From: a virus
DNA length: 46,284 nucleotides
Strand: one strand, 5' to 3'
IMG/VR virus record: IMGVR_UViG_3300020172_002301
Location: 1 to 46,284 of that record
The notes under the pieces are model-generated. The model searched no databases. It saw only the letters and a program-made list of their open reading frames with translations, and was not told where the DNA came from. Below are positions 6,868-34,242 of the stretch, piece after piece. Each line of letters opens with the position of its first letter. Positions within the stretch are counted from its first letter, which is position 1. The position numbers and the translations under genes are program-made.

Positions 6868-7428
6868 ATGGGATTAGACATGTATCTATCGAAAAAAACG
6901 TATGTGAAAAATTGGTCACATATGTCACCCGAAGACCTTCACAAAGTAAGTGTCAAAAGGAATGGGAAATTGGTTAAGGATATCAAACCCGAAAGAATTT
7001 CACATATAGTGGAAAGTGTGGGGTATTGGCGTAAAGCCAACCACATCCATCAATGGTTCGTTGAAAATTGCCAAGATGGTGAAGACAATTGCAGAGAATA
7101 CTATGTGGGTAGAGAACAACTTCGACAACTTGTTGATGATTGTAAGAAGGTGAAAGAAAGTTTTGAAAATTCACCAAAGGTGAAGAAGATGGTGGAAGTT
7201 GGTTGGCGGAATGGTGAGAAGTTAATGGAGGAAGTTGAACTCCCTTCGGACACATCAGTGGCGGATGAGTTACTACATCCACAACCTGGGTTCTTCTTTG
7301 GTGGAACGGAATACGATGAATACTACATTCAGTGTTTAGATGATACCATCAATCAAATCGAACCTCTATTAAAAGAAGATGAGGATAGTAAAACATCAAG
7401 TGATTACTACTACCAAGCTTCTTGGTAA
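6868..7428 (+). CDS. MGLD-type conserved phage protein
   Basis: A 186-residue protein opening MGLDMYLSKKTY, with YWRKANHIHQWFVENCQDG and EYYVGREQLRQL. Proteins beginning MG[LC]D[MI] and carrying this YWRKAN..H.WFV block occur widely in phages and bacteria without a known role. Two other proteins here (28774-29262 and 31893-32693) share only the MG[LC]DI start. The C terminus is acidic, then Tyr-rich (SDYYYQASW). Confidence 0.8.
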   Translation: MGLDMYLSKKTYVKNWSHMSPEDLHKVSVKRNGKLVKDIKPERISHIVESVGYWRKANHIHQWFVENCQDGEDNCREYYVGREQLRQLVDDCKKVKESFENSPKVKKMVEVGWRNGEKLMEEVELPSDTSVADELLHPQPGFFFGGTEYDEYYIQCLDDTINQIEPLLKEDEDSKTSSDYYYQASW

Positions 7429-7453
7429 ATAAAAAAAAATAATAAGGATATTG

Positions 7454-7485
7454 TTTGGTAAAATGGTATCCTTATTATATCTTTG
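7454..7485 (+). promoter_or_regulatory. Bacteroidota-type promoter
   Basis: TTTG at 7454-7457 and TATCTTTG at 7478-7485, spacing 20. It drives 7508-9154. No TTTGGC repeat precedes this one. Confidence 0.85.
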
Positions 7486-7507
7486 TAAAACTAAAACATT
7501 AAAAATC

Positions 7508-8128
7508 ATGCCAAATTGGTGTTCAAATACAATAACAATCACAGGTACGAAAGAACAAATCGGTCTTCTTACTCGTATCCTTGAGGACGAACCGAAATCA
7601 AAACCTGATGAGTCCATTGTTTTTAGAAGTTTGATTGGTATCGAACCTGGTATATCTCCTGAAGAATACGAAGATGGTGCTTGGTATGGTTCAAACACAA
7701 GTTACTTCGGAACTAAATGGGATGTAGATTTCAATGGTTGTAATTTCATGTTCAGTGAGGAATGTATCACAATGAGTCCCGAAACGGCGTGGTCACCACC
7801 AATTAACTTTGGTGTCGTATTACACAAAATGTACGGAGTGAGTGTGGAGTTATTCTACGCAGAGGGTGGTTGTGATTTTTGTGGTAAAACTATTATCAAT
7901 GATGATGGGATGTTTGAGGAGGATTATGGATACAATGAAGGACACTACCATTTTGATGAGGATTATTTTTGGGAGGGTGTAATTGAATCTCAAATTGAAT
8001 ATAGTGTTGAACAAGAAAGAGATGTGGAAGAATTCTTACGAGATTTTCCATTCCTATCAACCGAAGACAGAGAAGAACTTCGTAAATTATATTTGGAAAC
8101 CTTAAAACTAACGGAAACAAATGAATAG
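7508..8128 (+). CDS. YubB/Api92-like ferredoxin-fold protein (DUF1281 type)
   Basis: A 206-residue protein starting MPNWCSNTITITG, the signature opening of the DUF1281/YubB/Api92 family found on plasmids and phages. The first about 130 residues fit the family domain (WSPPINFG, VSVELFYAEGG). The C-terminal part is acidic and helical (ERDVEEFLRDFPFL). The frame is open upstream to 7451, but that stretch is the promoter, so the ATG at 7508 is used. The role of the family is unknown. It overlaps the next gene by 8 bases. Confidence 0.85.
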   Translation: MPNWCSNTITITGTKEQIGLLTRILEDEPKSKPDESIVFRSLIGIEPGISPEEYEDGAWYGSNTSYFGTKWDVDFNGCNFMFSEECITMSPETAWSPPINFGVVLHKMYGVSVELFYAEGGCDFCGKTIINDDGMFEEDYGYNEGHYHFDEDYFWEGVIESQIEYSVEQERDVEEFLRDFPFLSTEDREELRKLYLETLKLTETNE

Positions 8129-8378
8129 TATGAAAGCACAATCAGTGTGCAACCCCGACAGACAATTACCCTTTAACGAATGGGTAAAGGAACTAAACGT
8201 TTCAAAAACATACACGGAAGACAAGATTGTCCAAATGGTTCTCGAGGATGAGAATCGTAGGATGGAATCTATGAAATATTTGGAGGAAAAAGAAAACCCT
8301 CAGGAGGAGAAGTCGACCTTCCGAATTAGGTTGGCACAAATGGTTAAAAACTTTAAAGAGAAATATGGGACGAATTAA
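8121..8378 (+). CDS. small phage protein carrying a repeat-derived segment
   Basis: An 85-residue, highly charged, helical protein. Its C-terminal third (from ENPQEEKST) is encoded by a copy of the dispersed repeat (8297-8340). It overlaps both neighbours by 8 and 14 bases, as in a tightly coupled operon. No known domain. Confidence 0.7.
   Translation: MNSMKAQSVCNPDRQLPFNEWVKELNVSKTYTEDKIVQMVLEDENRRMESMKYLEEKENPQEEKSTFRIRLAQMVKNFKEKYGTN
8297..8340 (+). repeat. TTTGGC-family repeat inside coding sequence
   Basis: CCCTCAGGAGGAGAAGTCGACC then TTCCGAATTAGGTTGGCACAAA: the CTCAGG block, a GACC block and the TAGGTTGGCA end occur in family order, inside the frame of the gene at 8121-8378. Confidence 0.55.
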
Positions 8379-8859
8379 TAAAACAATCGACGGTGTCTTT
8401 ATCGACATCGTAGGTTCACCAACGGAAATCAGTACATATGACCAATTCATCCAACATGGTGATGGGTTGAAGTCATCTAAAGAACTCGACAGAGCAACTC
8501 ACTTGTATACCGAGTCAATCACATCAATGAAACAATCTTTCGAAAGATTAGCATCATTAGAGGAGATAATCATGCAAATGAGAATCCGTGAGAACTTGGA
8601 GGATATCAAATTGTGTTTGGTTCGTGATTACATTTACGCAAGGGTCCCATTCTATAGAAAGGGTACCAAGTCAAAAGATATTCGTATCATCGTGGACAAT
8701 TTGGAATTCCATCCCGAGGCCACTGAGAATCTGGACATTTTGTTTGGCAACGACGAGTTCATGGACAGAGCCAAAAACAAACTTATCCAAGCCATCGATG
8801 TGGAGATTGCAGAGAATGTTAGAAGTTACAAATTACAGTACTCACAAAAAACGAAGTAA
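8365..8859 (+). CDS. phage protein, unknown function, with repeat-derived segment
   Basis: A 164-residue mostly helical protein (ELDRATHLYTESITSMKQ...). A copy of the dispersed repeat at 8711-8751 encodes about 14 residues around FHPEATENLDILFGN. No motif points to a function. It starts 14 bases inside the upstream gene and the next gene starts 1 base after its stop. Confidence 0.7.
   Translation: MGRINKTIDGVFIDIVGSPTEISTYDQFIQHGDGLKSSKELDRATHLYTESITSMKQSFERLASLEEIIMQMRIRENLEDIKLCLVRDYIYARVPFYRKGTKSKDIRIIVDNLEFHPEATENLDILFGNDEFMDRAKNKLIQAIDVEIAENVRSYKLQYSQKTK
8711..8751 (+). repeat. TTTGGC-family repeat inside coding sequence
   Basis: CCCGAGGCCACTGAGAATCTG then GACATTTTGTTTGGCAAC resembles the intergenic copy at 3291-3333 (GGTCCGAGAATCTGATTTTAG...). 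It is in frame in 8365-8859. Confidence 0.5.
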
Positions 8860-8860
8860 G

Positions 8861-9154
8861 ATGAAAACAAACGATTCTATCACAACGGAAGTAGGTTTAA
8901 CAATCTACAAAGACCAAACGGGTTATTCTATCACAGGTTTCCCGAAGAAAGAAATCCTTAACCACGATTATGATTCGGCGTATGACTTCGAGGAGTGTGT
9001 AAGACGAAACGTAAAGTGTGGAGGTATCGAATTCGACAGTGAGTATTGTCAGTTTTGGGCGTACGCAAAAACCAAAGCTCGTCTTATCAAGTTTGCGGAC
9101 GACATCAAGAAACACTACGAGAAAGCAAAATCAATGAAGGAACAGATGTATTGA
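8861..9154 (+). CDS. small phage protein, unknown function
   Basis: A 97-residue protein. The ATG at 8861, 1 base after the previous stop, is the sensible start, although the frame is open further upstream inside the preceding gene. It has a beta-rich first half (EVGLTIYKDQTGYSITGF) and a Lys-rich C-terminal helix. Last gene of the unit begun at 7508. Confidence 0.7.
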   Translation: MKTNDSITTEVGLTIYKDQTGYSITGFPKKEILNHDYDSAYDFEECVRRNVKCGGIEFDSEYCQFWAYAKTKARLIKFADDIKKHYEKAKSMKEQMY

Positions 9155-9175
9155 TTTTGATTGGCAACAAATACT
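9151..9175 (+). repeat. TTTGGC-family repeat, short copy
   Basis: TATTGATTTTGATTGGCAACAAATA carries only the 3' end of the family consensus, spans the stop codon of 8861-9154, and leads into the promoter. Confidence 0.45.
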
Positions 9176-9183
9176 AGAATTAA

Positions 9184-9215
9184 TTTGGAATATTCTAGTA
9201 AATGACTTACCTTTG
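9184..9215 (+). promoter_or_regulatory. Bacteroidota-type promoter
   Basis: TTTG at 9184-9187 and TACCTTTG at 9208-9215, spacing 20. It drives 9240 onward. Confidence 0.8.
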
Positions 9216-9239
9216 AAATAACCATTAAATTTATATACA

Positions 9240-9821
9240 ATGAACAAAATCAAATTAAACAAGGAGGTCGTGGTATCCGACCCTTGTTACACCATCCCAA
9301 CTTGGTGTCAGGCAACTTTAAGTAATGTATTACCTGGTAACTACGATGTCCACTGTAAAAGTGTTGACTTAGGAGATTGGGGAGTTAGGAACTCTATGTT
9401 ACTTGTAGTACACGAGGACCACAACAATGAGTCACTTGAGTGGGACTCACATCCTGCAACCATCGGTGTTGACTCGGGTCAGTGTGGAATCTTTTCAAGA
9501 GAATCTTACCGTAACGACTCTCACCCAATTGAGAAAGGTCCTGCCGACTTTTCTTGTTCTCGAGGCGAATCAGGAGATGACTTCTACGATAAGATGGGAC
9601 AACGAACTCTTAGTGATAAATCCTTTGGTGTGTATGACGAGGGAGCGGTATGTTCTTCAGGAATTGGAGATGGTTCTTATATGTTGTTCACAGCTCAGGA
9701 TGAGTTTGGAAATGTAATTGCATTGGCGGTGGATTTCTTAATTGAAGGTGATGACGATGAGGAGGATGACACAAATAACTTTATTGACTTTGATTTTTAT
9801 TTAACTGAAATAAATTCGTAA
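9240..9821 (+). CDS. SDPCY-type conserved protein (DUF4241-like)
   Basis: A 193-residue protein with VVVSDPCYTIPTWCQA at the N terminus, TIGVDSGQCGIFS in the middle and SSGIGDGSY in the last third. The SDPCY plus D[SA]GQ.GIF plus GDGSY order is shared with DUF4241-like phage and bacterial proteins, whose activity is unknown to me. The C terminus is very acidic (DDDEEDD). First gene of the unit 9240-10835. Confidence 0.75.
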   Translation: MNKIKLNKEVVVSDPCYTIPTWCQATLSNVLPGNYDVHCKSVDLGDWGVRNSMLLVVHEDHNNESLEWDSHPATIGVDSGQCGIFSRESYRNDSHPIEKGPADFSCSRGESGDDFYDKMGQRTLSDKSFGVYDEGAVCSSGIGDGSYMLFTAQDEFGNVIALAVDFLIEGDDDEEDDTNNFIDFDFYLTEINS

Positions 9822-9830
9822 ACTTGTAAC

Positions 9831-10139
9831 ATGAAAAAAATATTTTTTGTTTTGATAATAGGACTAGCGGTTGGGTGTGGAATCACCCAACCTACAGCTC
9901 GAGCTAATAGTAAATCTTTGAATATTAAACATTCGGAGATTTTAATAGCATCACCAGACACAAGTGTTGTTTGGATTTTAAACAGTGGTCATGGTAAGTT
10001 AATTGCCGACACATGGATATCGGGAGCTTACGGGACGAAGACCAAAGTACATTTAGTTGGACCTGAAGAATTCAAAAAACTATCTGTTACGACGGTACCA
10101 TGTACCTGTGGAACAATGGCCAGAAATAAAACAAACTAA
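9831..10139 (+). CDS. predicted lipoprotein
   Basis: A 102-residue protein with a lipoprotein signal peptide: MKKIFF, a hydrophobic core, and lipobox LAVGC with the modified Cys at residue 16. The mature part is short, ends with CTCG, and is probably periplasmic or anchored to the outer membrane. Phage lipoproteins of this kind sometimes block superinfection; that is only a possibility here. The next gene follows after 16 bases. Confidence 0.75.
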   Translation: MKKIFFVLIIGLAVGCGITQPTARANSKSLNIKHSEILIASPDTSVVWILNSGHGKLIADTWISGAYGTKTKVHLVGPEEFKKLSVTTVPCTCGTMARNKTN

Positions 10140-10155
10140 ATTAAAACTACTTGAG

Positions 10156-10605
10156 ATGAAACCAGTACAAGAACCCCTACACATACTTAAACCCTCTCAG
10201 TGGATTAACGTCGGATGGTACCTGTTACCATTTTGTTTGGCGTACTTTACCCACAATGTATACTTTACCTTAGGTTCATTGGTGGTTCTACTTTATAAGT
10301 ACTATGAAGTGGACTACTGTAGATATTACATCTATGAAGACCGAATGACGGAAAGAAAGGGAATCTTCAACGTAACAGAAGAGACCGTTAACTACTTCAG
10401 GATTAAATCGATTATGTTGGAGGAACCGTTTATCATGAGACTCGTTGGGTTATCAAACGTAAAGATTACAACATCAGAACAATTCAAAATTAACTTCACC
10501 TTCCATGGTGTTGAGAATGGAGATGGTATCCAAGCGTTCTTGCAAGATTGTGCAAGACACGAGAGACAAAAAATGGGAACACGTGAGTTAGATTTATATA
10601 ACTAA
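10156..10605 (+). CDS. bacterial PH-domain membrane protein (YdbS/bPH2 type)
   Basis: A 149-residue protein. The ATG at 10156 is chosen because upstream codons lie within the preceding gene. Residues about 20-55 form one long or two short membrane segments (GWYLLPFCLAYF, FTLGSLVVLLY). They are followed by a bPH2 signature: YYIYEDRMTERKGIF, VNYFRIKSIMLEEP and RLVGLSNVKITTSE. This RIxxI..E....RL.GL..I pattern is characteristic of bacterial PH-like domains in membrane proteins. The function in phages is unknown. A dispersed repeat copy overlaps the membrane-segment codons. Confidence 0.8.
   Translation: MKPVQEPLHILKPSQWINVGWYLLPFCLAYFTHNVYFTLGSLVVLLYKYYEVDYCRYYIYEDRMTERKGIFNVTEETVNYFRIKSIMLEEPFIMRLVGLSNVKITTSEQFKINFTFHGVENGDGIQAFLQDCARHERQKMGTRELDLYN
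10191..10245 (+). repeat. TTTGGC-family repeat inside coding sequence
   Basis: ACCCTCTCAGTGG, GGTACCTGTTACC and CATTTTGTTTGGCGTAC follow the family order within the gene at 10156-10605. The match is weaker in the 5' half. Confidence 0.4.
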
Positions 10606-10835
10606 TGACCATGAAACTAAAGGATATAAGAATGTTTTGTCGGGTATGTAATGTTGAGTTACACCTGTCAGTGTTTCAGAAGACAGGTCTGATGGGTTTA
10701 CATGACCAATATAAGTTTGTTCGTGAGACCTGTGACACATGTTTAAAAAAGTTGAAGGAGGAGAATCCTGACTCAGGGACCTCAGACTCGGGAATTAGTT
10801 TGGCGAAACCTGAAGACGGGGGACCCAACAGGTGA
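10605..10835 (+). CDS. small zinc-finger protein with repeat-encoded tail
   Basis: A 76-residue protein with two knuckles, CRVC (residues 12-15) and CDTC (about 44-47), likely binding one zinc. The start overlaps the previous stop (TAATG). From ENPDSGTSDSG onward the last 24 residues are encoded by two tandem TTTGGC repeats, giving a low-complexity Ser/Gly/Asp tail unlike the rest. This looks like C-terminal extension by repeat insertion. Confidence 0.7.
   Translation: MTMKLKDIRMFCRVCNVELHLSVFQKTGLMGLHDQYKFVRETCDTCLKKLKEENPDSGTSDSGISLAKPEDGGPNR
10764..10806 (+). repeat. TTTGGC-family repeat at a gene's 3' end
   Basis: AATCCTGACTCAGGGACCTC then AGACTCGGGAATTAGTTTGGCG. Complete copy, in frame with 10605-10835. 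Confidence 0.7.
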
Positions 10836-10851
10836 CGATTTAGTTTGGCAA
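10815..10851 (+). repeat. TTTGGC-family dispersed repeat
   Basis: GACGGGGGACCCAACAGG then TGACGATTTAGTTTGGCAAG. It contains the stop codon of 10605-10835 (TGA at 10833-10835). Confidence 0.7.
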
Positions 10852-10856
10852 GATTA

Positions 10857-10899
10857 CCATCTCAGGATGGGCCCACACTGTCAATATAGTTTGGCAAAC
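10857..10899 (+). repeat. TTTGGC-family dispersed repeat
   Basis: CCATCTCAGGATGGGCCCAC then ACTGTCAATATAGTTTGGCAAA. Third copy in a loose tandem with the two before it. Confidence 0.7.
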
Positions 10900-10923
10900 G
10901 CTCATTGAAATTTTATACACGGA

Positions 10924-10955
10924 TTTGGAATTGTGGTTTTTATTATGTATATTTC
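10924..10955 (+). promoter_or_regulatory. probable promoter, imperfect -7 element
   Basis: TTTG at 10924-10927 and TATATTTC at 10948-10955, spacing 20. One mismatch to TAnnTTTG. It would drive 10989-11264. Confidence 0.6.
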
Positions 10956-10988
10956 TATAACAATAATAAACTATTAACGTTCAAAAAA

Positions 10989-11264
10989 ATGGCAACTAAA
11001 AAACCAGCAAAGAAACCGGCAACGAAGCCAGCAACTAAACCTGACCCAAAGAAGTCTACACCTAAGAAAGGTGGAAAGAAAGCTTTGTCTATGATGAGTA
11101 CTTCGAAGAATAGTGTGTACGTACCATTGTCACACCATATCTACTTCGATGGTTCATCTTACAGAGTTCGAGTAGCAATCAAAGGAAGAACAATCTCTCA
11201 GAGTTTCTCTTCTAAGAAGAAGGCCTTCGCTCACCGTAAGGAATTGTTATCTACTCAAGGATAA
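10989..11264 (+). CDS. histone-tail-like basic protein with AP2/Arm-type DNA-binding domain
   Basis: A 91-residue, very basic protein. Residues 1-35 are a Lys/Ala/Pro/Thr tail built on KKPA and TKPA repeats, like histone H1 C-terminal tails and bacterial histone-like proteins. Residues about 50-88 (HIYFDGSSYRVRVAIKG, then SQSFSSKKKAFAHRKELL) match the three-strand plus helix pattern of AP2-like and integrase Arm-type DNA-binding domains. It probably coats or bends phage or host DNA; that is inferred from composition and domain type. Single-gene cassette with its own terminator. Confidence 0.8.
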   Translation: MATKKPAKKPATKPATKPDPKKSTPKKGGKKALSMMSTSKNSVYVPLSHHIYFDGSSYRVRVAIKGRTISQSFSSKKKAFAHRKELLSTQG

Positions 11265-11286
11265 TAAAACCCGAACCAACAACCAG

Positions 11287-11316
11287 ACCCGTGAAATTCC
11301 ATCACGGGTTTTTTTG
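11287..11316 (+). terminator. Rho-independent terminator
   Basis: ACCCGTGA and TCACGGGT form a perfect 8-bp stem around AATTCCA, followed by seven T. Confidence 0.9.
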
Positions 11317-11318
11317 TA

Positions 11319-11458
11319 CCCTCAGGATGGGACCACACTGTCGATTTAGTTTGGCGTATGACACAACCTCCTCAGGGGCCCTGACTCTGGATTTAGTTTG
11401 GCGTATGACACAACATCCTCAGGGTCCCCGACTCTGGATTTAGTTTGGCGTATGACAA
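11319..11458 (+). repeat. tandem array of three TTTGGC-family repeats
   Basis: Three near-identical units start with CTCAGG at 11321, 11371 and 11418 (periods 50 and 47). The last two share GACTCTGGATTTAGTTTGG with following CGTATGACA. This array best defines the family consensus: CTCAGG, GGxCC, GACTCTGGATTTAGTTTGGCGTATGACACAAC. Confidence 0.85.
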
Positions 11459-11489
11459 CCGACAGATATTTATTACTAAAGATTATACA

Positions 11490-12263
11490 ATGATTAGACT
11501 TACGGAAATATTAGAGGGTGATGATGTGAATAACTTTGATTCGGCAACATCAGAGATTCATAGTAAATTGCGTGGTTATAGTGACGGAACATTTACAATA
11601 TTTGATTTAGCAATCAGGGAACCTGTAAAAGGAACCATGGGAGGTGTACCATTTATTTCAGAATGTATTATAGTGTTACATGTTTTCACCAACAGGATTT
11701 ATCCTGAGATGATTCAGGACGTATACATTTTGGTTGGCGGAATGATTCAGGAGATGGGTTACGGAGACTACCCGTTTAAATTTAAAATAGATTACCTTCG
11801 TTATGATAACCATGGGTTAAGTATCCCGATGATTACGGACCTACCACATAACATAGTACAACATTTAAGATATGACGTTCCGACTCTTCAGTCGGTTAAC
11901 ATGGGACAATATCAGTTTGTAATACCTTCGAATGTATTACCTAAGATTTCGGAAGATATAGGTGAGTGGGTTAAAATTAAAAGAAAGAAGGGGACCGTAT
12001 TGTATGACGCACTGAAGAAAGGAAAGGTGGGAGGAATTGAATATACTTTAAGGGACACCCCCGAAGATATTTTAATCTACGCTAACGGAAAAAATATTGA
12101 TTCCCCGAAAGAATTAAATGTATATGTTCAGTCCGGTGTTGTTACCATAAATGGTAAAACCAGAGACGAGTCAGATGACCGTGATGAGTTCTACAGACAG
12201 AAAGAATTTATAATGACCTCCCTTAAAGAGAAGTTTAAAAAGTTAGGTCTTAACCTCATGTAG
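11490..12263 (+). CDS. phage protein, unknown function
   Basis: A 257-residue protein. The ATG at 11490 (MIRLTEILEGDD) is preferred; the frame is open to a TTG at 11445 inside the last TTTGGC repeat. The first about 130 residues look like an alpha/beta domain, and the C-terminal half has a basic helix (RKKGTVLYDALKKGK) and a Glu/Lys-rich end. No known motif. Last plus-strand gene; a terminator follows 23 bases after its stop. No clear promoter precedes it. Confidence 0.75.
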   Translation: MIRLTEILEGDDVNNFDSATSEIHSKLRGYSDGTFTIFDLAIREPVKGTMGGVPFISECIIVLHVFTNRIYPEMIQDVYILVGGMIQEMGYGDYPFKFKIDYLRYDNHGLSIPMITDLPHNIVQHLRYDVPTLQSVNMGQYQFVIPSNVLPKISEDIGEWVKIKRKKGTVLYDALKKGKVGGIEYTLRDTPEDILIYANGKNIDSPKELNVYVQSGVVTINGKTRDESDDRDEFYRQKEFIMTSLKEKFKKLGLNLM

Positions 12264-13413: not shown

Positions 13414-15453
13414 TTATTTAATTTTTGGAAATAATTCGTCCATTAGTCCATGTTTTTTTACGTATTTGTATGCACCTGATAATTTCTTTTGAAATTCACT
13501 TCTATGTTTAAATCCTTTACTTAGTTTCTTAACCTTCTCATGTGTATAGGTTTCAACTCTGTTCGGTTTCTTTTTCATGTGTTTAGTTACTTCTTTCCAC
13601 CATCCATTTCTCACACAAGCGGAATACATCCCCTTATTCTCTTTCGTAAATTCACTCCTATGTTTATATTTTAAAGCCATTTCCATACAAACTTCTTTTG
13701 TGTATACAGAATAAGGAATTCCTTTCCTTTTTTTGAATTTGATAGGTCCTCTTTTTTCTTTTAAAATCTGAATTATATCTTCCCACCACCCATTTTGTCT
13801 TGCACATGTACAATATCTATAATCAAATTTTTTTATTTCCTCCCCATTCTTAAATCGTAAACACACCTCATATACTTCTTCTTTGGTGAACATGTCTTTT
13901 ACCTTTATTGTATTGGCCCATGAGTCAACAGTAGGTATGTGTTTCAATAAATCGTTAGCCGAAAGAAACTTATATAAACCATTAGCATTTAGTTGGACCT
14001 CTCTTCTTGTTTTATATTTCTTTATTTCTTCCATTGCCAATTCGACCGTCCATTTAGTTCTACCCGTATCATTAACAAGAGGAGTGATAAAATCATCCCA
14101 CCAACCTTTTTTCCTGATAACCGTAAAAACATGTGGGGATAATAAATTCTTGGCCTCGGTCAATGTTTTTACTCCATTTAATTCCTGTTTTATTTTTTCA
14201 TATGACCACTTTACCTTATCACTACCTAAACCACCAGCCTTTGCTTTGTTTAATAAAACCCAACCGTTGTTTTTATAATACCCTATTGCTCGGTCTTCCA
14301 TTTCACCTGCAATATCTTTATGGAATTTTTCATCATATACTTTTTTAAAAACAAAATCTAATCCCGTTTTTTCAATGTGTACTAATACGGGAGACTTTGA
14401 TTTTTTAGTCGTCAAATGGTCAGATAATCTTTTTTCCAAATTATATGTCAATCCAACATAAACGTGGTTATCTGGAAATTCAAATGCATAAATATATCTA
14501 TTTTGATTGGATGCTTTATGTTTAAGGTGCGAAATTAGTTCGGTCCATTTATTTTTTCTTACAGTATGAAGTGCCCCGCCACACTCATTAAGAAAATCTG
14601 AAAGGTATTCATATTTTAATGCATGTTCCTTACAATTTTCATATGTCCAATATCCTTTTGGTTTCTGAATGTACACTAAGTGAGATAATAATTCATCCCA
14701 TTTATTAACCTTTATTCTTTTGTAAGCACCACCAAATTCTGAATCTTCCCTAAATTCTTTAAGTGTTTTAAATTTTTTTGATATCTCCGCACATTTTTGA
14801 TATGTCCAAAACCCATTTGGTTTATAAATGTACTCCATATGACTTATACATTCTAACCAAAATTCCCTTTCTTTACCATTTGGTTTATCATATGTCTTTG
14901 CCGAAATGTAAAATGACTTTTCGGAATTTTTCCAATCCCTTTGATATTTGTATCTTCTAGCGGACTCTAATATTTCTTCTTTAGTGTATCGTTTCTCATT
15001 AGGGGATTTACCCATATGTTTTACCGCCTCAGACATTATATTCAATCTCTTTGCGGCGTTATAGATGCCGGGTGAACCTACTCTAAAACTATCTCTTGTT
15101 TGATACTTTATAGATTCATTTAAAACCTCTTCTACTGTGTATGGTCTATGTTGTGTCCTAATCAAATGGGATGTTAATTCATGGTACCATCCTTCTCTTA
15201 ACATGACATTACTTACACTGGTACCCTGTAATTCACTAAGGTAAGTATACTTTGAGACCTCATCTTTACATCTTTCATATGTCCATTTTGGATTTGTATT
15301 TGAATATATTGGACCAAAGTGAGATAATAGTTCATTCCATTTTTTTTGTTTAACTTTTAATATAATTGAAACATCGTTCTTATATAATTCAGTATAAGAT
15401 TCGTATTTGGAAATTACTTCCTTACATAGTTCGTATGTTAGTTTTCTCGGCAC
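13414..15453 (-). CDS. giant GIY-YIG nuclease with 11 flanking repeats
   Basis: A 679-residue protein starting at GTG. At about residues 317-412 there is a GIY-YIG nuclease domain: YIYAFEFPDNHVYVGLT, the Arg in NLEKRLSDHL, and a Glu in GEMEDRAIGYYK. Six about 50-residue repeats precede it (starting near 1, 55, 104, 155, 214, 267) and five follow. They have the pattern W.YE.CKE.A.KY....F....GAY...RKN.W..EL.SH[LM]. The repeats are probably helical DNA-recognition modules. Phage GIY-YIG proteins are usually homing endonucleases; the many modules suggest a long recognition site. It sits between unrelated small genes with no sign of an interrupted host gene. Confidence 0.85.
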   Translation of the reverse strand: MPRKLTYELCKEVISKYESYTELYKNDVSIILKVKQKKWNELLSHFGPIYSNTNPKWTYERCKDEVSKYTYLSELQGTSVSNVMLREGWYHELTSHLIRTQHRPYTVEEVLNESIKYQTRDSFRVGSPGIYNAAKRLNIMSEAVKHMGKSPNEKRYTKEEILESARRYKYQRDWKNSEKSFYISAKTYDKPNGKEREFWLECISHMEYIYKPNGFWTYQKCAEISKKFKTLKEFREDSEFGGAYKRIKVNKWDELLSHLVYIQKPKGYWTYENCKEHALKYEYLSDFLNECGGALHTVRKNKWTELISHLKHKASNQNRYIYAFEFPDNHVYVGLTYNLEKRLSDHLTTKKSKSPVLVHIEKTGLDFVFKKVYDEKFHKDIAGEMEDRAIGYYKNNGWVLLNKAKAGGLGSDKVKWSYEKIKQELNGVKTLTEAKNLLSPHVFTVIRKKGWWDDFITPLVNDTGRTKWTVELAMEEIKKYKTRREVQLNANGLYKFLSANDLLKHIPTVDSWANTIKVKDMFTKEEVYEVCLRFKNGEEIKKFDYRYCTCARQNGWWEDIIQILKEKRGPIKFKKRKGIPYSVYTKEVCMEMALKYKHRSEFTKENKGMYSACVRNGWWKEVTKHMKKKPNRVETYTHEKVKKLSKGFKHRSEFQKKLSGAYKYVKKHGLMDELFPKIK

Positions 15454-20787: not shown

Positions 20788-20982
20788 TCATTTCAAAACT
20801 TCAGAATAAAATAATTTTCTACCTTCGCAAACGTCTTTATCGTTGACGTTCCAAATATCTTTGTTAACCATGTTACAATTGTGGGACTTATCCGTTTTCT
20901 TTGAAAAACTAATGATTGAATCATTATGTTTATTACGGACAACCCACGGACATTCCTTACATGGTTTTTTATTCTTCTCCAA
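20788..20982 (-). CDS. DUF6283-like cysteine protein
   Basis: A 64-residue protein with PCKECPW near the N terminus, HNCNM in the middle and CEGR near the end. The CxxCPW...H.C...C.G order matches the DUF6283 type found in phages and actinobacteria. It likely binds a metal; its role is unknown. It overlaps the upstream gene by 14 bases. Confidence 0.7.
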   Translation of the reverse strand: MEKNKKPCKECPWVVRNKHNDSIISFSKKTDKSHNCNMVNKDIWNVNDKDVCEGRKLFYSEVLK

Positions 20983-21553
20983 ATTTAAAAATGTTTAACT
21001 GAGACGATTTCCCACTGTTATCCAAAAAATCTGAAGGTTCAATTTCTTTACCTTTGAAATATATCCTGTCAATATAATCCCAATCCCCGTCAGGAAAATC
21101 AACTGAACCATTACAATATGTAAAGTCTTCAACTGTCGGTACCTCATCTGATTCAAATTCATATTCAAAGATACCTCCCTTGTTCTCATCAACACTCACA
21201 AAGATATTATCACCCTCCTCGTTTGGGATTGCGTCGTGTGATTTATAATCATCCCAATCCTCATCAACCGATGTTATATCTCGTAAATCTTCAATCTTAA
21301 ATTCAAGAACAACAATTCCATTCTCATCTTCCAATTCAAATATCATTGTATCATTATCCAATGCTTTGTTTACATGAAACAAATCACCATCATAGATATC
21401 GATATCCAATTCTTCTAAATCAAATCTAACCTCCCACAACTCATCGTAACCTTTTTCTTCTTTAAGTTGTTCGATTTGTTCTACCTGTTCATTGGTTAAT
21501 TTCTTACCAATAAATTCAGCACTCCAACCATACGATTTTAATTTGTAGACCAT
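20969..21553 (-). CDS. acidic phage protein, unknown function
   Basis: A 194-residue, strongly acidic protein (many Asp/Glu, e.g. SVDEDWDDYKSHD). Mixed alpha/beta pattern, no catalytic motif. DNA mimicry is conceivable from its charge but is only a guess. Its start overlaps the lipoprotein stop (TAATG). Confidence 0.75.
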   Translation of the reverse strand: MVYKLKSYGWSAEFIGKKLTNEQVEQIEQLKEEKGYDELWEVRFDLEELDIDIYDGDLFHVNKALDNDTMIFELEDENGIVVLEFKIEDLRDITSVDEDWDDYKSHDAIPNEEGDNIFVSVDENKGGIFEYEFESDEVPTVEDFTYCNGSVDFPDGDWDYIDRIYFKGKEIEPSDFLDNSGKSSQLNIFKFGEE

Positions 21554-21807
21554 TAATTGTCTGTTTTTGGATTAGGTACTGAAAACACAAACGTGTCACC
21601 CAACTTGTATTTGTCGTTATCATCAATTAAAATAATTGTTCCTTTTAAATTTGATGATGGTGTTCCTTTAAGTCGATAATGACATAGTCCATTATCACCG
21701 GGCGAAACACAAATGACTTCAACAGTTGGACACTTCATTGTGTTCTTGTGGGTGACACAAGATACAAATGAAATTAAAATTAGGAGTACTAATGTGATTT
21801 TTTTCAT
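21553..21807 (-). CDS. predicted lipoprotein
   Basis: An 84-residue protein with signal peptide MKKITLVLLILISFVSC, the lipid-modified Cys at residue 17. The small mature domain has further cysteines (KCP, ICV, LCH) and reads as beta-rich. One of four predicted lipoproteins in the window. Confidence 0.8.
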   Translation of the reverse strand: MKKITLVLLILISFVSCVTHKNTMKCPTVEVICVSPGDNGLCHYRLKGTPSSNLKGTIILIDDNDKYKLGDTFVFSVPNPKTDN

Positions 21808-21818
21808 ATGGTTTTATT

Positions 21819-21935
21819 TTAGTTCATGAATATTTTTACCATTAATAAAAATAAATTTCCAATAATTGCAAATACACCTACTATTACCGCAAATGCGTAT
21901 AATACATCACCAAATGGGTCGCTAGTTCTTCTCAT
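21819..21935 (-). CDS. 38-residue membrane peptide
   Basis: MRRTSDPFGDVLYAFAVIVG followed by a long hydrophobic stretch ending MVKIFMN. It begins directly after the leader AAATCAGAATAAT-ATG, the same leader found at 16.4-17.3 kb, and lies just 15 bases downstream of the tRNA-like element. Confidence 0.6.
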   Translation of the reverse strand: MRRTSDPFGDVLYAFAVIVGVFAIIGNLFLLMVKIFMN

Positions 21936-21949
21936 ATTATTCTGATTTG

Positions 21950-22038
21950 TAGTCAGGACAGGATTCGAACCTGTTTTCAGGGACTTAAAGTAAATAACCC
22001 TCTAAGTTTGTGTAACGACCAAAATACGCCACCTGACC
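21950..22038 (-). tRNA. tRNA-like element, type II length, isotype unclear
   Basis: On the minus strand an 88-nt segment has a 7-bp acceptor pair (GGTCAGG with CCTGACT), T8, A14 and GG in the D loop, and a perfect T arm (ACAGG, TTCGAAT, CCTGT). Its length fits Leu/Ser/Tyr tRNAs. The D stem and anticodon stem are poor: the best anticodon loop has only three pairs, so I do not assign an amino acid. CCA is not encoded, in keeping with the phage CCA-adding enzyme at 39455. It could be a diverged tRNA or a tRNA-like 3' domain of the adjacent RNA. Confidence 0.6.
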
Positions 22039-22640
22039 ATAAAGAAAGGTTCTGAATCATCCCCACGCCACTTTGGGAGAACCTTTCAAGTTTAATAGTA
22101 GTTGGCAACATAATATCCCACACCGATATGCCTAAGATTCGTTAGACAATAGTAACCATCCACGGTGGGTTTCTACTTTCACACTCCGTCTTTGTTCTAT
22201 CTCACCATCAGTGCGGGTGGAATCAAACTCAGCGTTCAGTGCTATCCTCAGAACATCTTCACCCTACCCCCAAAGTTACGTGGTGAGTCTCACTCGGAAG
22301 CTGAGTGTGTATTGTAAGATTGTTCAGTGTTCTTACAACTTGTGGATTCTATTACGACTAATTAAAGCCCCTTACCCCCTCAATCCATAATGGGGAACTC
22401 TTGTTTTGAGTTTCCAACATATCTGACAGAACTTCCCTTGTCAGTAAGCCTCGCTCATTGGAGGTTATATGAGTTTCACTCTTTGTGTATCCTCCCCCAT
22501 AGCCTTGAAGACTTCAAGTCAGGTTCACACACCATAACGGACGAGTACCTCCGTTAATCGTGGGGTCTAAAAGTGGAGTGTGACGTATGCTCGTCCTATA
22601 GTTGTTTCCATCCGCGGACTCACGGTTCTCTCCACTAATC
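22039..22640 (-). ncRNA. large structured non-coding RNA candidate
   Basis: A 600-nt stretch without any credible ORF, with GC near 50% in sampled parts against about a third in the neighbours. Perfect stems: 22572-22578/22630-22636, 22536-22541/22550-22555, 22504-22509/22513-22518, 22423-22428/22439-22444, 22312-22318/22332-22338 and 22044-22052/22079-22087. Several weaker ones add to these. The first stem starts right after the predicted start site, and the last one abuts the tRNA-like element. Size, phage context and tRNA adjacency recall the GOLLD and ROOL giant RNA classes; I cannot confirm membership. Confidence 0.7.
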
Positions 22641-22645
22641 TTTTA

Positions 22646-22677
22646 CAAGTATAAGAAATAATTTTTAATATTCCAAA
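22646..22677 (-). promoter_or_regulatory. promoter of the structured RNA locus
   Basis: On the minus strand: TTTG (complement of 22674-22677), 20 bases, TATACTTG (complement of 22646-22653), one mismatch to TAnnTTTG. Transcription would start near 22640, just before the first stem. Confidence 0.7.
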
Positions 22678-22683
22678 ACTTTT

Positions 22684-22869
22684 TTAAAATAATTTCAAGT
22701 TTGTGTCGTTAACCTTGGTGTAAAGTTTCATGACCTTGGTAACTGTAGACTTGGAACAGTGAACTGACTTTGAAATAGAGTCATAACTCCTTCCTCGTCT
22801 AACCAAATTAATGATTTCAACTGAACGAGGTTTCTCTAAAAATGTTTCGACGGTTTCTTTTTTTCTCAT
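22684..22869 (-). CDS. small helix-turn-helix DNA-binding protein
   Basis: A 61-residue basic protein. The core IINLVRRGRSYDSISKSVHC then SKSTVTKVMKLY is a classic helix-turn-helix of the resolvase/transposase-like type. It is probably a transcription regulator. It lies immediately upstream of the structured-RNA promoter and could regulate that promoter or its own operon. Confidence 0.75.
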   Translation of the reverse strand: MRKKETVETFLEKPRSVEIINLVRRGRSYDSISKSVHCSKSTVTKVMKLYTKVNDTNLKLF

Positions 22870-22876
22870 GATTTAA

Positions 22877-23170
22877 TTATTTAGATAATCTTCTTGTTGG
22901 TATGCAGTGGTCATCATAATATCTATGATGCCTTATATCAATTTTTCTTGGGTACAAATTTTTAAATATTTCCTGTCTCTCAATCAGTGTTAAGTTTTCA
23001 GTACAATCCTCACCAAACATAATGAACAACTCATCATCGGTAATTAGTTCGTGTGCGAACTTTTCAACACTGGTTAATTTCTTGTCTCGAAAATATTCCC
23101 GGTCGATACCCAAGTTCTCGTACCAATTAAGGTATTCTCTGTATGCGGTTTTTATTTGTTTTGTAATCAT
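22877..23170 (-). CDS. phage protein, unknown function
   Basis: A 97-residue helical protein (YREYLNWYENLG, SVEKFAHELI, LTLIERQEIFKNLYP). Segments of this type occur in other large phages. No catalytic motif. Overlaps its upstream neighbour by 4 bases. Confidence 0.75.
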   Translation of the reverse strand: MITKQIKTAYREYLNWYENLGIDREYFRDKKLTSVEKFAHELITDDELFIMFGEDCTENLTLIERQEIFKNLYPRKIDIRHHRYYDDHCIPTRRLSK

Positions 23171-30926: not shown

Positions 30927-31886
30927 TTAAAATATATTTAATTGTTTAACTAATGAATGGATTGTTTTATGTCTTGAGAAAGTATTAGATATTGTACCGT
31001 CAGTAATATCTTTAACTGAGTTCGTACAATAGATTCCATCAAAGTATTCACCAATCCAATCAAATCCCGCACTGAAAATACCGTGAGTGACAACCAAATA
31101 GTTTTTACCATATTGTTCTGGTTGAACTGAACTCGATAGTTTTCTAATTTCATTAACCGATTTAGCAATCTCAATGAATGTTCGTCCACCATCACAGATG
31201 TCATCGATAATAAAGATATCCTTATCGGCATCATCTACTGACATCGGTACGTGGGTATAATCAATCTTACCGGTTTCGAGGTTACGATGTTTAGATGCAA
31301 TAATAATTTCACCATTATAACCAATAGACTCCGCAACATGAAATACTTTCTTCAATGCACCCGCGTCAGGTGAAACCAATCTTATCTTTTTAAAATTATT
31401 TCTATTCCATGTTTCATCTCCTTTTGATAGGAAATACTCTCTTAATGCAAATGTGACAATTTGTGTATTATCAACCTTAACAAAGTTATTAATACATGCC
31501 TCAAGAACATCCGAGTGTGGGTCCAAAATCGTTACCTTTTCATAACCTTGTGAGTTAATGATTGGTGCAATTACAGTCTTAACATAATTAAAACCACCGT
31601 CCATAAACTTACGGTCACTTCTTGCTCCAATACAATAAGGAATGTAAAGACGAATTTTATTTACACCAATCTCTTTAAGTGATTGAGTTGCACAAATAAT
31701 AATCTCCAAGTCCTGAAATGTGTTTAAACGAGATTTAATTGTTACACCATTTGGTCTATCTTTAAGTGAATCGAAAGTGTTGTAACCTTCTTCAATTAAT
31801 CTTAAAGATTGTTGACCATCAGGAAAACGACTGATTTCATATTTGAACGATAAAATGTCGTTAGGGTTTACTAAATTTAATTCCAT
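30927..31886 (-). CDS. prs: ribose-phosphate pyrophosphokinase (PRPP synthetase)
   Basis: A 319-residue protein. RFPDGQQSLRL near the N terminus; YCIGARSDRKF and ILDPHSDVLEAC in the middle (substrate region); SPDAGALKK; and IIDDICDGGRTFIEIA, the PRPP-binding loop. It makes PRPP from ribose 5-phosphate and ATP. Two genes away lies NAMPT, which consumes PRPP to make NMN, so the two probably form one phage NAD+ salvage route. Confidence 0.9.
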   Translation of the reverse strand: MELNLVNPNDILSFKYEISRFPDGQQSLRLIEEGYNTFDSLKDRPNGVTIKSRLNTFQDLEIIICATQSLKEIGVNKIRLYIPYCIGARSDRKFMDGGFNYVKTVIAPIINSQGYEKVTILDPHSDVLEACINNFVKVDNTQIVTFALREYFLSKGDETWNRNNFKKIRLVSPDAGALKKVFHVAESIGYNGEIIIASKHRNLETGKIDYTHVPMSVDDADKDIFIIDDICDGGRTFIEIAKSVNEIRKLSSSVQPEQYGKNYLVVTHGIFSAGFDWIGEYFDGIYCTNSVKDITDGTISNTFSRHKTIHSLVKQLNIF

Positions 31887-32694: not shown

Positions 32695-34242
32695 TTATAG
32701 TTTGTTTAAACGTTCACGAATTTCACCAAGAGATGTTTCATTATCGAATCTTCCCTCTTCATAGATTGTTTGTAGGATACCTTGACCTTCTTGTTCCCAA
32801 GTACATTGAGTTAATACCTCATGGTCTTCGGTTACACAGATTAAACCCTTCAAAGATTTCTTGGTACCATCATCGGTAACAGGGTCTTTGTAAATGTCGT
32901 ATCCGACTTTAACTCTGACAGGGACTTCGGTTCCTGGGTTACCATAATCAGTCGTTTTGGTTTCCAATACCTCAAACCATGCACCTTTAGCAGCAAAACC
33001 GAATGTGTCACGGGTATTCATTTGGTAAGTGAATGAACCAACACCCAATACGATGTTTGTTGATGCGAACCCTTTTGCTTCCAATCTCTGATAGATTTGG
33101 ATTTGACGGTCTAATGTGATTGAGTCACCATAGATTGCTCCGATGTGTGGGTCAAGAACTTTGTAACCTTGTTCGTTGATTGTTCCACCGAAGATTTCCC
33201 AAAGTAATTCGATTACACCTTTTTCTTCTGAAGTTAAGATAGTTTCTCTGTCTAATTCATAATCATTATAGTGGTCCCCGTCTTCAAATATCTGTGTGCC
33301 ACAAATAATATCCACAGGGTTTCCAGAGTCAGGACGGATAACCAATTTACCATCACGAGCCATGATTGCCTCTTTGTTTGCTGGTAAGTATTCAGTAACC
33401 AACTTCCACAAGTCAAATGTATCGGATACAATTGATAAGATTCCTTTAGGGAAATCCACCAACCAATCGGCAATCATTTGTTGTTCACCAACCGTAAAGA
33501 TTTTGGTTGTTGATACAGAGTGTTCAGATGCGTTCACTGAATAGATTGACACTTGGTCCTGTGGTTCGTTGTAGTAATAACGTGCACCGGGAATACAAAT
33601 GATGGTATCTGAACCTAAGAACGAAGATGCGTGACCCAAACCACTTGACAACATATCCCATGGGGATAAACCACGAGCAGAGAAGTCATGACAAAGGAAA
33701 GGAATTAACCATGCATTTGTTGGGTCTGTTTTCATTACCCATTCAACAACATTACGTTTGTATTGTAATGCGATTGTTGCAGATGTGGATGGTTTCCATG
33801 CTAATGAACTGATGATTGTCTCCAAGTACAATGTTAACCACGCAAAACCATCAACCGTGTTGATGAAGGTCATGTGGGGAACGTTTGGATTTGTTTCAAT
33901 ACCTTCAGGTAATGATTTAACACGAATAGGTAAGTAACCTAATTTGTGAAGGTCAACGAAGTGTGATGAGTCGTAATCCATTCCAAGATACAATGACATA
34001 TCTTTTCCAAAGTTAACGGCAACTTCCTCAGGTAAACTAAAGAAGTTCTCTTGGAACTCGTCATGTAACCATTTAACAACCAATTGTTGTCCGAATGATA
34101 CGATTTTTGACACACCTTTAGGTGCGTACTTAACACTACGTGGAATCCATGTACCATACAAACGAGTGGTACCGGGTGCTAACATTTTTTTGTGACCGAT
34201 TTTATATCCGTCAGTGTAAAATAAACTTGTTGGTTTAAACAT
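32695..34242 (-). CDS. nadV: nicotinamide phosphoribosyltransferase
   Basis: A 515-residue protein close to the usual NAMPT length. FYTDGYKIGHKKM at the N terminus; FLCHDFSARGLSP; VNASEHSVSTTK; SIVSDTFDLWKLV and LVIRPDSGNPVDI, all diagnostic of NAMPT. It forms NMN from nicotinamide and PRPP, the limiting step in NAD+ rebuilding. Phage NAMPTs are known to restore NAD+ after NAD-depleting immune systems act; no NMN adenylyltransferase is visible in this window. Confidence 0.95.
   Translation of the reverse strand: MFKPTSLFYTDGYKIGHKKMLAPGTTRLYGTWIPRSVKYAPKGVSKIVSFGQQLVVKWLHDEFQENFFSLPEEVAVNFGKDMSLYLGMDYDSSHFVDLHKLGYLPIRVKSLPEGIETNPNVPHMTFINTVDGFAWLTLYLETIISSLAWKPSTSATIALQYKRNVVEWVMKTDPTNAWLIPFLCHDFSARGLSPWDMLSSGLGHASSFLGSDTIICIPGARYYYNEPQDQVSIYSVNASEHSVSTTKIFTVGEQQMIADWLVDFPKGILSIVSDTFDLWKLVTEYLPANKEAIMARDGKLVIRPDSGNPVDIICGTQIFEDGDHYNDYELDRETILTSEEKGVIELLWEIFGGTINEQGYKVLDPHIGAIYGDSITLDRQIQIYQRLEAKGFASTNIVLGVGSFTYQMNTRDTFGFAAKGAWFEVLETKTTDYGNPGTEVPVRVKVGYDIYKDPVTDDGTKKSLKGLICVTEDHEVLTQCTWEQEGQGILQTIYEEGRFDNETSLGEIRERLNKL

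Follow-up and report, generated by a model that had tools for sequence, protein, structure and literature searches.

To our knowledge, few giant ornate RNAs are known; the cages formed by two of them, GOLLD and ROOL, are ribosome-sized. Both are phage RNAs that occur near tRNA islands and form nanocages, and their function is unknown (PMC12286853). Here we describe a third tRNA-linked giant phage RNA beside GOLLD and ROOL, which represents a new RNA family common to some fifty jumbo-phage sequences. It was found in a viral DNA of 46,284 nucleotides (IMG/VR record IMGVR_UViG_3300020172_002301; hereafter the window), in which a first-pass annotation, made from the letters alone, had read positions 21950-22640 as one GC-rich, heavily structured RNA locus with a tRNA-like end, and as belonging either to the known ornate RNAs of this kind or to a new class of them. 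The new-class form of that proposal is supported, whereas membership of GOLLD or ROOL is not, as neither model matches. The proposed extent holds for the structured RNA but not for its end: the RNA proper stops near 22042, and 22038-21950 is a separate element.

Results

The RNA gene occupies window positions 22640-22042 on the minus strand, and its product is a noncoding RNA. With a GC content of 44.8% at 22040-22640, against 33.9% for the whole window, the region exceeds all of 914 sampled 601-base windows, in agreement with its earlier description as GC-rich. The lack of a credible ORF over about 690 bases, also claimed before, was borne out: no ORF longer than 59 aa is present in the region on either strand, no reading frame is conserved across the homologues, and the longest open frame in 35 homologues comes to 73.9 codons, compared with 73.6 in shuffled sequence. 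Indels relative to the window sequence are multiples of three in 19 of 242 cases. Protein coding of 22640-22042 is excluded by these indel lengths and by open frames equal to those of the shuffles.

A promoter with 20-base spacing, previously placed at 22646-22677, is indeed found in the sequence upstream of the RNA.

22674 to 22677, minus strand: TTTG, the -33 element of a promoter of Bacteroidota type; 20 nt separate it from the -7 box
22646 to 22653, minus strand: -7 element TATACTTG (consensus TANNTTTG)

TTTG ends at 22674 and is followed, after 20 nt, by TATACTTG at 22653-22646, which departs from the Bacteroidota consensus at one position. Where a homologue has no tRNA upstream, a perfect TATATTTG/TACATTTG box is often found, at the constant distance of 12-14 nt from the RNA start motif. 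The host very probably belongs to the phylum Bacteroidota, an inference from the promoter type and from resemblance to the 225-kb Tenacibaculum phage PTm1, which infects a member of the Bacteroidota: the nicotinamide phosphoribosyltransferase (NAMPT) of the window is 59% identical to that of PTm1, although a Leptolyngbya phage scores higher (68%). The NAMPT gene and a neighbouring phosphoribosyl-pyrophosphate-synthetase-like gene, the latter recognized by eye, lie at 30927-31886 and 32695-34242 (minus strand); such NAD-synthesis pairs are found in many large phages. Elsewhere in the window, an ORF of 679 aa (13414-15453, minus strand) contains repeated modules and a GIY-YIG-like stretch (YIYAFEFPDNHVYVGLTY), and, as read by eye, it probably encodes a homing-endonuclease-like protein.

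Homologues were sought by scanning for 16-17-mer DNA patterns from the conserved parts, followed by a profile search. In this way nhmmer identified about 55 loci; once near-identical copies are removed, 42 distinct ones remain. The loci lie on viral contigs, which reach 304 kb. A search with neighbouring genes led to L002, a syntenic copy with 84-88% DNA identity. Cultured phages searched by BLAST with the locus, and phages and plasmids searched with the homologue L048, yielded no homologue. Of 21 matches to the 17-mers in 84,980 prokaryote species genomes, none was a homologue by nhmmer. No description of this RNA was found in the openly licensed literature, and the family is previously uncatalogued. 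Computational surveys of structured phage RNAs do exist, and unnamed candidates in them might include fragments of this RNA.

The genes around the RNA vary among homologues while the RNA is retained, and the RNA itself can be missing from close relatives of the window.

21554 to 22876, no strand assigned: optional block consisting of a helix-turn-helix gene, the RNA, the tRNA-like element and an 84-aa gene; absent from L003-L017
22684 to 22869, minus strand: gene for a 61-aa helix-turn-helix protein, next to the RNA on its upstream side; syntenic in L002, with 97% identity

In L003-L017, the closest relatives as judged by a flanking 194-aa gene, the RNA is missing, and the homologues of 22877-23170 and 20969-21553 adjoin each other; the four features between them therefore constitute an optional block. 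L002 keeps the helix-turn-helix gene, the RNA and the tRNA-like element, with different genes downstream. The 61-aa product shows weak matches to HTH_23 and to transposase helix-turn-helix domains. Possibly, this gene regulates or moves the RNA cassette.

The fold of the RNA was derived from the core alignment A3 of 35 sequences. The first consensus contained 87 pairs, 46 of them with compensatory double changes; three further helices were then added, found by a search for covarying complementarity in loops and by eye. The final core has 100 consensus pairs in 19 helices, with 97.2% of cells paired. Three of these helices (PK1, PK2 and PK3) are pseudoknots or kissing loops, and all three show double changes.

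22571 to 22640, minus strand: optional 5' domain, closed by the stem AGTGGAG (22636-22630)/CTCCACT (22578-22572)
22042 to 22570, minus strand: conserved core of 19 helices, including 3 pseudoknots or kissing loops (alignment A3)
22266 to 22566, minus strand: helix 1, the long-range closing helix, ACCC (22566-22563)/GGGT (22269-22266), nearly invariant
22397 to 22546, minus strand: pseudoknot PK3, ACTC (22546-22543)/GAGT (22400-22397), double changes at 4 of 4 pairs
22402 to 22484, minus strand: optional peripheral module of about 70-80 nt, seen in the core alignment
22311 to 22339, minus strand: helix 9, GTTGTAAGA/TCTTACAAT, double changes at 7 of 9 pairs
22118 to 22169, minus strand: helix 14, CCCACCG/CGGTGTGG, double changes at 6 of 7 pairs
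22147 to 22130, minus strand: hairpin helix 15, inside helix 14
22054 to 22140, minus strand: kissing loop PK2, hairpin loop GAATC (22140-22136)/GATTC (22058-22054), double changes at 5 of 5 pairs
22066 to 22107, minus strand: pseudoknot PK1, TGCCA (22107-22103)/TGGCG (22070-22066), double changes at 4 of 5 pairs
22044 to 22087, minus strand: 3'-terminal hairpin, helices 18 and 19, double changes at 13 of 13 pairs

Compensatory double changes occur at 59 of the 100 pairs. They amount to 370 cells, compared with 94.6 in shuffles, and the covariation score is 0.373; shuffles score 0.171, and sliding the pairing partners, a control that covers the whole structure, gives no more than 0.095. Under a self-written, phylogeny-aware null, eight column pairs reach E<0.05, seven of which are 97-100% Watson-Crick or wobble. 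Covariation thus exceeds the controls and supports a consensus structure, as required of a new structured RNA family. Two reservations apply to the pseudoknots: PK1-PK3 were picked on the same alignment, so that their counts lean somewhat towards them, and covariation cannot separate intramolecular from intermolecular kissing loops. The stems first noticed by eye are real, although the support comes from covariation among homologues, the check proposed with them, and not from folding energy. The 9-bp stem seen just before the tRNA-like part corresponds to the 3'-terminal hairpin.

Structure arising by chance in GC-rich intergenic sequence, or a cis-acting leader belonging to the gene that follows, would agree with the single-sequence folding energy, which is unremarkable (z = -0.67; 3 of 20 shuffles fold equally well). 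Energy alone would therefore not have supported a claim of structure, and it was set aside as uninformative. Both ideas are refuted by the covariation counts, and a leader is further contradicted by neighbour genes that differ among homologues in which the RNA is kept; we regard either as having practically no chance of being correct.

Outside the invariant parts, the RNA is modular. The 5' domain, whose stem shows compensatory changes at three pairs in 14 homologues, is missing or replaced in many homologues; the module at 22402-22484 is present in the window, L002, L057, L093 and others and absent from most homologues; and the region around 22233-22196 is missing from several sequences of the core alignment. 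Peripheral modules that come and go are typical of large structured RNAs.

Immediately downstream of the core lies the element that had been taken for the 3' end of the transcript.

21950 to 22038, minus strand: tRNA-like element, from ARAGORN, the Rfam tRNA model and its fold

The observation of a tRNA-like structure was correct: it has a 7-bp acceptor (GGTCAGG/CCTGACT), the discriminator A and a perfect T arm, ACAGGTTCGAATCCTGT. ARAGORN reports a tRNA-Ser(aga) at 21949-22038, and the Rfam tRNA model (RF00005) scores 27.4 bits, below its gathering score of 29. Compared with a tRNA, the element shares the acceptor, a D arm (here of 3 bp), the T arm and the discriminator, whereas the anticodon arm gives way to a third arm of 8 bp with a 9-nt loop. 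Of the features that define a tRNA, the 7-bp acceptor and the 5-bp T arm with a TTCGANT loop are thus met, and the 5-bp anticodon stem with a 7-nt loop is not.

This element belongs to a widespread, repeated family of 239 distinct elements at 148 loci, 61-259 nt long (median 105). Its members have a near-fixed acceptor, AGTCAGG/CCTGACT, the T arm ACAGGTTCGAATCCTGT, a Leu-like D region (GTGGCGGAAT) and a hypervariable middle, and most lack a canonical anticodon arm; ARAGORN calls a tRNA in 50 of the 239 and none in the other 189. An exact 25-mer of T arm plus acceptor matched at least 120 viral stretches, and L057 carries eleven elements within 13.9 kb (7289-12183 is cited for this record). A subset in L036, L038, L040, L059, L072 and L079 has its own shared middle, which includes another T-arm-like motif, GGTCGGTTCGAGTCCGATGG, and its T arm proper is altered to AGAGGTTCGATTCCTCT; from the shared middle and changed T arm it follows that at least one variant is a conserved sub-family. 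With its fixed scaffold and hypervariable middle, the family is a second uncatalogued feature.

It had been suggested that the odd arms of the element might reflect its participation in the fold of the RNA. A single RNA with a tRNA-like end, comparable to tmRNA or to the tRNA-like 3' structures of viral RNAs, is indeed what the window and L002 bring to mind, as in both the element directly follows the RNA with acceptor and T arm intact. Yet in other homologues its place is taken by ordinary tRNAs (Asp, Thr, Ile, Phe, Glu or Met), six loci (L048, L080, L082, L085, L086 and L109) have no recognizable tRNA there, and many copies of the element lie away from the RNA. The suggestion was rejected on these grounds, and a single composite RNA is very unlikely. 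Given its family membership and its separate copies, the element is a neighbour of the large RNA, and probably its processing signal, but not one of its domains.

In relatives of the window the RNA sits among tRNA genes, usually fitted exactly between them, and the junctions are precise. At many loci a tRNA or tRNA-like element on the upstream side ends with its discriminator 5 nt ahead of the core or 8 nt ahead of the 5' domain; this spacing is kept with different tRNAs, and a downstream tRNA or tRNA-like element begins 2-9 nt past the terminal hairpin. Release of the RNA by tRNA-type processing is accordingly an inference in which we have good confidence, although the enzymes, too, are inferred and nothing shows the cleavage directly. 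There must be other routes as well, since in some homologues one end of the RNA, or each of them, lacks a recognizable tRNA; in L048 the place of the downstream tRNA is taken by a terminator-like hairpin and a T run. Other structured RNAs share or adjoin these arrays: freshwater-1 RNA (RF02979) in L032 (3348-3409) and L111 (6397-6459), and tmRNA in L029 (8000-8377), L032 (13563-13958), L037 (8549-8942) and L085 (3881-4263). A group I intron match overlaps or abuts the tmRNA of L037. These tmRNA and group I intron matches are genes separate from the new RNA.

The same setting raises the possibility that the RNA is catalytic, such as a ribozyme, RNase P-like or of another kind, with which the phage processes the tRNA array that it encodes. 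Its position inside arrays with precise junctions, its size, its pseudoknots and its long invariant unpaired stretches would all fit. However, the models of RNase P RNA and of group I and group II introns find nothing in the window at E<=10, and the window and L002 each have a single tRNA-like element and no array. A resemblance to RNase P RNA in a few motifs, noticed by eye, was discarded, since the motif order differs and the covariance model does not match. A catalytic role is in our judgement unlikely.

The covariance-model search proposed at the outset, with GOLLD, ROOL, tmRNA and RNase P, was run and gave no match at E<=10. More broadly, none of the Rfam 15 models except tRNA gave a meaningful match in window 21900-22700, even at E<=10; the few matches at E 1-10 (BtsR1, snoRNAs and RAGATH-11) are far below their gathering scores and were treated as chance. 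A very divergent GOLLD or ROOL missed by these models would share the habitat of the new RNA (phages and tRNA islands) and its similar size, and GOLLD occurs in many of the same genomes. Against this, the model of the conserved 3' domain of GOLLD (RF02032, gathering score 150 bits) has no match at E<=10 in 21900-22700 or in the diverged homologue L096, that of ROOL (RF03087, gathering score 99.1 bits) has none at E<=10 in the window, and the Rfam 15 scan of L096 found neither. Moreover, 25 of the 44 records with the new RNA also encode GOLLD at a locus of its own (E of about 3e-91 or better), which largely refutes this idea for GOLLD; overall, it is extremely improbable. No ROOL was found in the 44 records, in a scan that had no positive control.

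The GOLLD-bearing records comprise L032, L033, L037, L038 and 21 others, and in the four named it follows the new RNA on the same strand, at a distance of about 4.5-6.5 kb. Among control records GOLLD was found in 5 of 37, or 5 of 36 without L150, a control later found to carry the new RNA but no GOLLD. The difference is significant by Fisher's test (p = 8e-5; for distinct loci, 18 of 37 against 5 of 36, p = 0.002). It is confounded by phage relatedness and fragment length and is reported as an association only.

Discussion

The explanation that we favour, and hold to be likely as a whole in the absence of transcript data, is a new RNA family of jumbo phages, whose members are large (about 450-600 nt), noncoding and multi-pseudoknotted. 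The RNA would be transcribed from its own Bacteroidota-type promoter, as proposed for the window, or within the transcript of a tRNA array. Its 3' end would most likely arise when RNase P cuts at the tRNA or tRNA-like element a few bases downstream and, where a tRNA lies upstream, its 5' end most likely through 3' processing of that tRNA; the other ends may be set by transcription start or stop. The freed RNA is predicted to fold into a compact particle, held by the long-range closing helix and at least three kissing-loop or pseudoknot contacts, and most likely has the role of a stable structural RNA while infection proceeds, as GOLLD and ROOL may, large ornate RNAs that share its genomic habit and form nanocages. 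Such a particle might be a homo-oligomer or an RNA-protein assembly and might serve translation or the tRNA economy. There is no direct evidence on these last points. A particle-like function is an inference for which we see the chances as even, while an oligomer or cage, equally inferred, is a possibility about which we remain doubtful.

A different role has been considered for the same molecule, that of an anti-defence decoy or sponge that protects the phage tRNAs or titrates a host nuclease or some other factor. The linkage to tRNA arrays and tRNA-like elements would suit such a role, as would the patchy presence of the cassette and its swappable peripheral modules. Yet conservation of the core goes far beyond what a decoy seems to require, and we know of no partner. 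We consider a decoy unlikely without dismissing it, and prefer the stable structural RNA described above.

As a third, unrelated RNA linked to tRNA arrays and often accompanied by GOLLD, the new family leads us to suggest that jumbo phages are equipped with a toolkit of large RNAs. Its co-occurrence with GOLLD and a shared, inferred route of excision lead to concrete hypotheses on the function of these RNAs, and the 35-sequence alignment, in which helices and kissing loops are marked, can already serve for in vitro folding, SHAPE and cryo-EM. On a more speculative note, an RNA that is cut from tRNA arrays by tRNA-processing enzymes and coexists with GOLLD in a multi-RNA toolkit may act jointly with a large, hypervariable repertoire of tRNA-like RNAs, built on one acceptor/T-arm scaffold, on host translation or defence in the course of jumbo-phage infection, and would then amount to a categorically new class of phage RNA machine; at present this seems to us rather unlikely.

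Among known systems, OLE RNA, RNase P RNA, tmRNA and the group I and II introns share with the new RNA the size class of large structured RNAs, but none has a match at E<=10 in the window. The resemblance is closer with ROOL (RF03087; a model of 574 positions), which is likewise large, found in phages and prophages near tRNA islands, and rich in pseudoknots (PMC12286853); the new RNA has these traits of location and multiple pseudoknots, yet does not match the ROOL covariance model at E<=10. GOLLD (RF02032) is also a large, ornate, noncoding phage RNA near tRNA islands, with pseudoknots and with one conserved and one more variable domain (PMC12286853). The new RNA is phage-borne and, in its homologues, placed near tRNA islands (the window itself has only one tRNA-like element); unlike GOLLD, it has other conserved sequence, occupies a separate locus and has no match to the GOLLD covariance model. 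What it has in common with GOLLD and ROOL is not sequence or structure but habit, size and an ornate fold.
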